The notes below the pieces were generated by a model. That model was given only the letters and a program-made list of their open reading frames with translations. It was not told the DNA's origin and searched no databases. From positions 1-11,819 of the forward strand of contig JAITHS010000135.1 of NCBI GenBank assembly GCA_031279875.1: DNA of 11,819 bases, given 5' to 3'. This DNA is from Tannerella sp. Its GTDB lineage: Bacteria; Bacteroidota; Bacteroidia; Bacteroidales; Tannerellaceae. The translations under genes and the position numbers were made by a program. Positions within the stretch are counted from its first letter, which is position 1. Each line of letters begins with the position of its first letter. Positions 6,461 through 11,819 of this stretch are shown here, one piece after another.

Positions 6461-7792
6461 ATGCCCGAAAATTTCAACAACGTACAGGATATCAATATCC
6501 AACAATTTGATTATCAACTGCCTGATGATAGTATCGCCAAGTTTCCGTTAGAACGTCGCGACATGTCGAAACTGCTCGTTTACAGAGGCGGCGAAATTTC
6601 GGAGCATGTTTTTAAAGACCTTTCCCAACTGCTGCCGACAGGTTCGCTGCTTGTTTTCAACAACACGCGGGTCATCAGGGCGCGACTGCCGTTTACGAAA
6701 GATACCGGTGCCAAAATCGAGGTGTTTTGCCTCGAACCCGACGAGCCTAACGACTACGCCGTCAATTTCGCTACACGCGGAGAATGTCGCTGGAAATGTC
6801 TCATCGGCAACCAAAAACGCTGGAAATCGGGAGAGTTGAAAAAGAACATCATTATCAAAGGAAATGAAGTAACGCTGACGGCAACACAACATTCAACCGT
6901 AACGATAACATTTCGCTGGTCAAACGCCGACTACACTTTTGCCGACATCCTCGAAGCCGGCGGCGTTATCCCTATCCCCCCGTATCTGAACAGAGCAACG
7001 CAAGAATCTGATTTACAGACATATCAAACTATATATTCCAAAATCAAAGGCTCGGTAGCAGCGCCGACAGCAGGCTTACACTTTACCGACGAAGTGCTAC
7101 AAGACCTCAAAGACAAAGGTATTAAAACCGAAGAGCTGACCCTGCACGTCGGCGCAGGAACGTTTAAACCCGTTCAAACCGACCGTATCGGCGACCATGC
7201 GATGCACGCCGAATTTTTTACTGTTAGCCGTCGCCTCCTCGAAGCCCTCAAACAACATGCCGGTAACATTACAGCCGTAGGCACAACAAGCGTGAGGACG
7301 CTCGAAAGCCTGTATTTTTTAGGAACACAACTCGAAACGCCGGATTGCTGCGTGCCTACCGATGATTTACAGGGCATTCGTCATTGCGAGGAACGAAGCA
7401 ATCCAGCGTTACGGTTTTCTCTGGATTGCTTCGTTCCTCGCAATGACGTGCGTCCGGCAACCAGCGCAATTCCGACAGTATCCCAATGGTCGCCCTACGA
7501 CACTTCTACTCCTGAAATATCGACCGAAAAAGCGCTCCAAAACCTCATCGACTACTGCGACCGCAATAATCTCGACGCCATAACAGCCTCGACACAAATT
7601 ATTATAGTACCCGGTTTTCGTTTCCGCATAATAAACCGTATGCTGACCAACTTCCACCAGCCCAAAAGTACGCTGATGCTACTCGTTGCCGCTTTTACCG
7701 GCACGGAAGATATTCACAAAATCTACGATTACGCTTTAACACATGATTTCCGCTTTTTAAGTTACGGAGATACATCCCTGCTAACACATTGA
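6461..7792 (+). CDS. queA: tRNA preQ1(34) S-adenosylmethionine ribosyltransferase-isomerase, with repeat-encoded insertion
   Basis: QueA moves the ribosyl part of S-adenosylmethionine onto preQ1 in the wobble position of tRNA, giving epoxyqueuosine. Family blocks are present in order: NNTRVIRARL (67-76), GSVAAPTAGLHFT (197-209), LHVGAGTFKPVQ (228-239), VGTTSVRTLE (273-282), VPGFRFRIINRMLTNFH (383-399) and FLSYGD (432-437). At 443 residues it is well above the roughly 350 of E. coli QueA. Part of the excess is usual for Bacteroidetes, whose members have a longer stretch before the PGF block. Residues about 303-330, however, are encoded by a palindromic repeat inserted in frame (peptide HCEERSNPALRF, then LDCFVPRND). 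The insertion lies between conserved blocks, so activity may survive. The ATG at 6461 follows the promoter at a suitable distance; the ATG at 6442 is out of frame. The last 31 bases overlap the convergent stress-protein gene. Confidence 0.93.
   Translation: MPENFNNVQDINIQQFDYQLPDDSIAKFPLERRDMSKLLVYRGGEISEHVFKDLSQLLPTGSLLVFNNTRVIRARLPFTKDTGAKIEVFCLEPDEPNDYAVNFATRGECRWKCLIGNQKRWKSGELKKNIIIKGNEVTLTATQHSTVTITFRWSNADYTFADILEAGGVIPIPPYLNRATQESDLQTYQTIYSKIKGSVAAPTAGLHFTDEVLQDLKDKGIKTEELTLHVGAGTFKPVQTDRIGDHAMHAEFFTVSRRLLEALKQHAGNITAVGTTSVRTLESLYFLGTQLETPDCCVPTDDLQGIRHCEERSNPALRFSLDCFVPRNDVRPATSAIPTVSQWSPYDTSTPEISTEKALQNLIDYCDRNNLDAITASTQIIIVPGFRFRIINRMLTNFHQPKSTLMLLVAAFTGTEDIHKIYDYALTHDFRFLSYGDTSLLTH
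7368..7448. repeat. In-frame palindromic element inside queA
   Basis: The arms at 7379-7406 and 7421-7448 are perfect 28-base reverse complements around a 14-base loop (7407-7420). The left arm begins CGTCATTGCGAGGAACGAAG. The 11 bases before it (7368-7378, TACAGGGCATT) also occur next to the copy at 32-70, so they belong to the element. The whole element is then 81 bp, exactly 27 codons, which explains how queA stays open. The CATTGCGAG-type palindrome is a widespread intergenic repeat in many bacterial genomes; finding it within a conserved gene is unusual. Confidence 0.88.
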
Positions 7793-8678: not shown

Positions 8679-9584
<906 letters not shown>

Positions 9585-11630: not shown

Positions 11631-11658
11631 ATTTCGGAAGATTTGTTGTGTTACATGA

Positions 11659-11819
11659 TTCGTCATTACGAGCAGGAATGATAGCATCAAACGAAAAAGG
11701 ATGACGGTACCCAAAACCCTTGCAGTGGTTTTAAACCCTGCAAGCGGTTTGGAGCTTACGTCCGTCATTATAAGCGTCGGCGCAATCAAGTGTCGTCCCA
11801 TGCGGGACTATTGTTGATA
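11659..11819. repeat. Gene-free region with degenerate palindromic repeats
   Basis: No credible gene is present here. Bases 11659-11675 (ATTCGTCATTACGAG core) resemble the start of the queA element, and CGTCAT at 11661 has an inverted partner, ATGACG, at 11701-11706. Bases 11711-11725 and 11738-11752 are inverted arms matching at 13 of 15 positions around a 12-base loop that is itself nearly palindromic (GGTTTTAAACC). Another CGTCATT lies at about 11763. A perfect GTCCC-ATGC-GGGAC hairpin lies at 11795-11808, possibly the start of a further repeat cut by the window edge. Confidence 0.55.

Follow-up and report, generated by a model that had tools for sequence, protein, structure and literature searches.

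The queA gene and its product

The window, by which we mean the whole stretch of 11,819 nt analysed here, is contig C173 of a draft genome (G000; 2.785 Mb, 410 contigs, 80 % complete). It includes a gene of the QueA family in the long form found in Bacteroidales (Table 1), with a product named S-adenosylmethionine:tRNA ribosyltransferase-isomerase. The protein scores 360.6 bits against NF001140 (cut-off 324) and 322.9 against TIGR00113 (cut-off 267.45) in NCBIfam, has a match to PF02547, and is matched in sequence by the solved QueA structures 1yy3, 1vky and 1wdi. Its predicted fold also matches QueA structures (Foldseek). The frame of 443 codons is free of stops across the whole of a palindrome that lies within it. 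In an alignment with 36 relatives, which agree completely at 120 columns, the window protein differs at 1 of these, so that the gene looks maintained.

A second QueA-type gene, 31 % identical to the first and with an open frame of 380 aa, is found in the same genome (C263:1176-2012) and, among the matches listed, many relatives likewise have both a form of about 350 aa and one of about 410 aa. A scan of the named genomes found 19 QueA loci of 37–49 % identity, and hence no close relative among them. No second record of the allele in the window was found, the window protein being the only one at 100 % among the matches listed. In one homologue of 588 aa (P0002), well over 100 residues in a row are duplicated internally, which may be a tandem duplication or an effect of assembly.

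Table 1. Coordinates of queA, of the repeat within it and of the second copy of the repeat in the window
Feature	Position	Strand	Description and basis
QueA-family gene, long Bacteroidales form	6461–7792	+	443 aa; open reading frame, PF02547, NCBIfam, sequence match to 1yy3/1vky/1wdi, Foldseek
Inferred insert in queA	7340–7447	+	108 bp, 36 codons, residues 294–329; length excess, repeat matches, low pLDDT
Decayed third REP arm	7340–7367	−	23 of 27 comparable bases match the arm consensus; inverted match
Conserved spacer, TACAGGGCATT	7368–7378	+	Lies ahead of the plus arm in many copies in the genome
REP dimer, plus arm	7379–7406	+	CGTC tag, ATTGC/GCAAT stem, CCAG tail
Inter-arm loop	7407–7420	+	14 bases; inverted-repeat search, loop lengths of 75 dimers
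REP dimer, minus arm	7421–7448	−	Fully complementary to the plus arm
Second copy of the repeat	31–69	−	At the contig end

The palindrome and the extent of the insert

The original prediction described a perfect 28-bp inverted repeat with a 14-base loop, and this is exact: the two arms are 28 nt each and 100 % complementary, with 14 nt between them. A folding energy of −35.5 kcal/mol (z −12.4) was obtained for the 70-nt hairpin as DNA, and one of −72.6 kcal/mol (z −9.3) for the 130-nt region 7331–7460 as RNA, with 0 of 200 shuffles as good in either case. Taken singly, the arms fold with a 5-bp stem and a 10-nt loop at −2.4 and −2.2 kcal/mol, and 45 and 53 of 200 shuffles, respectively, fold as well. 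The related copy that had been noticed at the start of the window is also present.

Comparison of the two copies had been taken to define an element of 81 bp, that is 27 codons without a stop. The stop-free frame stands, and the length is revised, as a third arm lies upstream and the excess over relatives is about 36 residues. A 61-nt inverted match pairs 32–92 with 7346–7406 and thus crosses the left edge assigned to the element. The segment upstream of the spacer was compared with the minus-arm consensus (CCTACC variant), and its 23 matches are the highest score among 111 elements. The second-highest score, 22, belongs to another genic copy (L179), and the sequence upstream of a copy in mfd matches at 15 of 27 bases. 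None of the shuffled upstream sequences (50 per element) was as high as 19. The insert peptide reads PDCCVPTDD-LQGI-RHCEERSNP-ALRFS-LDCFVPRND and, as PDCCVPTDD resembles LDCFVPRND, the third arm is visible at the peptide level too. The reading we favour for the queA insert is a composite of three arms, about 108 bp long; its left boundary rests on a degenerate arm, and this we count against the reading.

The QueA loop in relatives

Among 29 relative loci fetched, the span from the VGTT to the PGFRF motif was measurable in 22, five having no ORF by the pattern used and two being partial. The span is 116 residues in the window protein and 77–82 residues in all 22 measurable loci, with exactly 80 in 12 of them. 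A larger set was made up of the 120 best-listed homologues from a search of 5.8 billion proteins, of which 112 were measurable at the loop. Here, the loop is 58–62 residues long in 107 of the 112 and 97 residues long in the window protein, and the mode, 61 residues, equals 97 minus the insert of 36 codons. Unrelated expansions of 16–49 residues occupy the loop in 4 of the 112. Among the 120 best-listed homologues, the peptide encoded by the repeat is found in the window protein alone, the other 119 lacking it. Hence the segment is missing from the relatives measured, which are shorter by about 36 residues rather than 27, and an equally long but unrelated segment in its place is not what they show. 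Judged from these alignments, the QueA loop is tolerant of changes in length.

The AlphaFold model of the window protein (mean pLDDT 76.7, alignment of 37 sequences) has pLDDT values below 50 at residues 296–303 and 305–334, and residues 296–334 are almost without regular secondary structure. In this model the inserted loop is probably disordered or flexible.

The repeat family in the genome and the genus

With up to three mismatches allowed, the arm has 102 forward and 109 reverse matches (211 in all) in the source genome, and a reversed control pattern has none. The stretches fetched around listed copies (107 stretches, 304 kb) gave 97 sites, derived from about 100 of the 211 arm places, 100 of 140 places in a second listing and a third listing. 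Among these matches, 59 of the 97 sites examined are simple plus-minus dimers (head-to-head, with the tags outside) and lone minus-plus pairs were found at none of the 97. In the 75 dimers measured with looser arms, the loops are 11–15 or 31–58 nt. The arms are without mismatch in 18 of the 75, including the queA copy; arm mismatches number 4, 4 and 6 in the other three genic dimers that were measured.

Allowing up to two mismatches, the repeat is present in 25 of 61 genomes searched, its own included. All 25 are among the 37 genomes searched from the genus of the source genome, and the repeat was found in none of 24 genomes from other families of the order. A search of plasmids returned one record, a Novosphingobium plasmid with 78 % identity, and viral contigs returned 9 stretches with one exact arm apiece. 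The window has no match in Rfam at gathering scores.

Several further repeats were recorded. A second REP subtype (CGTCATTGCGAGCGNAGCGAAGCAAT) has tens of matches in G021, G036, G062, G015, G020 and G006 and none in G000. The right end of the window (11655–11819) appears to consist of further intergenic repeat modules in an array; its reverse complement resembles a flank, CGCATGGGACGACACTTGGTTGCGCCGC, lying upstream of several REP copies, and it also includes a module, CCCTGCAAGCGGTTTGGAGC, that is found beside REPs. A second repeat module, reading DVSSKPLAGFKTTARV, is close to the REP in a number of ORFs (L190, which encodes a FecR protein, L147, L202 and L241) and lengthens the coding insert in L190. 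The window also has a 12-bp tandem repeat (ACGCCGTCCGAA) at 787–834, coding for TPSE-type repeats in the ORF at 61–2244, and a 6-bp tandem repeat (GCTCCT) at 9154–9183, in a minus-strand ORF of 301 aa for a membrane-type protein, where it codes for repeated AG.

The test for an associated transposase was confined to PF01797 (Y1_Tnp). In 37 genomes of the genus, the presence of Y1_Tnp showed no relationship to the copy number of the repeat (Fisher p 0.70–1.0, Spearman rho −0.01). The sole Y1_Tnp match in the 80 %-complete source genome is at C98:217-432, and no arm was found in its 1,932-base locus with up to five mismatches allowed. The arrangement expected of a RAYT-mobilised REP, in which the repeat lies on either side of its own RAYT gene, was thus not seen in this 80 %-complete genome.

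Copies within other genes

Among the matches listed, 13 of the 97 sites examined lie, with 60 bp to either side, within ORFs of 120 codons or more. A Pfam scan covered ten of the 13 ORFs as well as QueA, with L147 and L228 outside the scan. Two ORFs were left out because the repeat is not internal, namely L202 (C-terminal tail of a sulfatase) and L193 (N-terminal extension of an MFS protein), and L144, L147, L169, L187, L228 and L241 were discarded as unsupported. The repeat is within a domain-supported protein at 5 of the 97 sites (among the matches listed). The hosts are QueA, Mfd, chorismate synthase (AroC), a glycosyltransferase linker and FecR, and the plus arm is read as RHCE in all five. 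As stop-to-stop ORFs of at least 150 codons make up 80 % of the 304 kb fetched, genic copies are strongly depleted.

In Mfd (L221), the loop is 61 residues long and is 33 residues long in 27 of 39 aligned relatives (+28). The other 12 relatives have 30–59 residues, some of them through unrelated expansions, so that an excess of length is not in itself proof for Mfd. In AroC (L185/L316), the loop is 41 residues, compared with 28 in 28 of 29 other loci (+13); the aroC gene of the source genome seems to be split across contigs C16 and C143. The glycosyltransferase linker (L179) has 55 residues and its relatives have 34–53, which would mean that the repeat replaced linker sequence rather than purely adding to it. 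The N-terminal part of L179 looks dehydratase-like by eye and is without a Pfam match. FecR (L190) was counted on the basis of its flanking domain alone.

In G005, G006 and G021, eight stretches in which a long open frame surrounds the repeat were judged by eye to be spurious or terminal and were not counted. In G005, which has 200 arms, no supported genic copy was found among the stretches inspected, and the pattern is thus not uniform.

Recurrence at the same loops

The part of these results that we find most interesting is the recurrence in AroC and Mfd. In the AroC of a second species (G036, L322), the loop that holds the insert in the source genome comprises 61 residues (+33), including RHCERSEAIQ, which derives from a different REP subtype with 42 matches in G036 and none in G000. 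This insert is also found in a separate record, P0241, which differs at 2 of 408 residues and has a longest contig of 9,271 bases, compared with 11,094 for G036:C186. The AroC loop is at its modal length in 89 of 96 measurable proteins from the best 120 listed, and unrelated expansions are present in P0242, P0261, P0278, P0353 and P0357. At the Mfd loop, P0126 and P0134 read RHYEAQSN and RHCEARSN, respectively; these are the two found besides the source protein among 120 listed.

All six events counted (QueA, Mfd, AroC, the glycosyltransferase linker, FecR and the G036 AroC) read the plus arm as RHCE; were two frames equally open, the probability of this by chance would be 1/32 to 1/64. The survey of the source genome was blind to frame, and the protein search for further cases is biased towards RHCE because that frame was its query. 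A bias of frame is suggestive only. The RHCE-frame peptide is hydrophilic and the alternative, VIARNEAIQ...IASFLAMT, is less so; selection for tolerable loops could cause the bias. A bolder reading is that REP insertion, locked to one frame, repeatedly supplies protein segments in the genus; it would have struck the same AroC and Mfd loops independently in several species and left a shared RHCE peptide whose Cys and His residues may have a role, for example in binding a metal or a shared partner. We consider this unlikely.

Origin of the queA insert

The original prediction placed a palindrome of a mobile type, mostly intergenic, in frame in a QueA-family gene of the Bacteroidales, and the identity of the repeat, its copy number and the intact frame bear this out. 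Taken with the absence of the insert from the measured relatives and the low-confidence loop in the model, they make it very probable that queA carries a copy of a non-autonomous REP found genome-wide, and that this copy was inserted in a length-tolerant loop and is translated as 36 extra, disordered residues. The element, a head-to-head dimer of the CGTC-REP-like kind with a decayed third arm, would insert broadly across the genome, and selection would purge those copies that break genes; among the matches listed, only five genic copies were found in the source genome. In-frame copies in tolerant loops would persist. As its length is divisible by three and no stop interrupts it, the queA copy is most likely translated as 36 extra residues, and these would probably be a near-neutral decoration with a small effect on QueA.

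A regulatory role, with the strong mRNA hairpin slowing ribosomes or altering the stability of the queA transcript, would suit the very stable RNA fold and the perfect arms of the queA copy. However, the arms of the other genic dimers are imperfect, so that a perfect hairpin has not been kept in them, and the insert is absent from the measured relatives; we regard this role as rather improbable. Less probable again is that queA is a decaying paralogue, in which the insert is tolerated only because another gene does the work. The gene at C263, and the pairs of QueA forms in relatives, leave room for a loss of function in the insert-bearing queA even with its frame intact, but that frame is full length with almost all invariant columns retained, and like inserts are present in Mfd and chorismate synthase.

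The repeat could also have been misplaced into queA during assembly. The genome is a draft in many contigs, repeats can sit at contig ends, as does the second copy in the window, and aroC appears to be split between two contigs. Against this, the two halves of queA flank the insert in order and in frame within a single 11.8-kb contig, Mfd and AroC have in-frame inserts as well, and the G036 AroC insert recurs in P0241. An assembly error at queA is unlikely from these sequences, and we give it very little weight. Finally, the segment might be removed from the RNA or bypassed by ribosomes, leaving a mature protein without it. Known bypass elements have a strong hairpin within a coding region, as is the case here. 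However, the genic inserts measured are all whole codons and stop-free (+36, +28, +13 and +33 residues), a constraint that bypassing would not impose, and the window has no Rfam match; this is the least probable of the explanations considered.

Translation of an inserted REP therefore remains our preferred explanation for queA. It adds a Bacteroidales case of new protein segments written by a selfish palindrome; the sites in relatives are cleanly empty, the same loops have been hit repeatedly across species, and the queA family has been hit in Rickettsia as well. Comparisons within the genus make it testable whether such inserts are driven by hotspots, selected for frame or functional.

Comparison with known repeats

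In-frame REPs have already been described in Rickettsia, queA included, and in other bacteria, and the phenomenon itself is not new. The view that in-frame palindromes are mainly rickettsial does not hold, since, in the part of Di Nocera 2013 (PMC3733652) used here, GTAG and CGTC REPs located within genes are reported for several species. For Bacteroidales proteins, no publication on in-frame REPs was found at the level of result lists, the supplementary tables of Di Nocera 2013 excluded.

The GTAG REPs moved by RAYT tyrosine transposases are like the repeat described here in being short palindromes of high copy number that form dimers, but here Y1_Tnp does not follow copy number in 37 genomes. 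The CGTC REPs are closer. According to the same part of PMC3733652, they occur in five phyla, including Bacteroidetes, are mostly head-to-head dimers with tail-to-tail pairs rare, have units with an 8–9 bp stem and a 4–5 nt loop, include RPE-4 and RPE-6 of R. conorii, and had no transposase found accompanying them. On that description, the features in common are the unpaired outer CGTC tag, a stem starting AT and a CCA-type tail (CGTC-ATTGC...GCAAT-CCAG), together with the predominance of head-to-head dimers, high copy number, a mostly extragenic location with some copies in genes, and Bacteroidetes hosts. The arms here differ in having a 5-bp stem and a 10-nt loop, and some copies, that in queA included, have a further upstream arm-like module. 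Because of the different stem and loop, we call the repeat CGTC-REP-like rather than a member of the CGTC REPs.

In Rickettsia, by the part of PMC3767692 used here, RPE-4, RPE-6 and RPE-7 occupy protein sites that are solvent-exposed and recurrently hit, and the inserts are extended; queA (tRNA ribosyltransferase-isomerase) carries RPE-4, of 115 bp in R. japonica (Table 1 of that paper). As far as that account goes, the likenesses are in-frame location in conserved proteins, recurrent loci, extended inserts and the hit in queA; the phylum and the sequence of the repeat are different here.

Pieces of an Erythrobacter QueA aligned to NF002398, which we take to be the Rickettsia-type QueA model, leave about 28 extra model positions between 149 and 181, and these are presumably the RPE. 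They map near residue 180 of the window protein, about 115 residues upstream of the loop that holds the insert (294–329), and an insert at the same loop in Rickettsia was on this ground set aside. As the loops differ, the QueA family has probably been decorated independently in the two lineages. What QueA, Mfd and AroC share with the RPE-bearing proteins is an in-frame, stop-free insert in a conserved protein that is absent from relatives.
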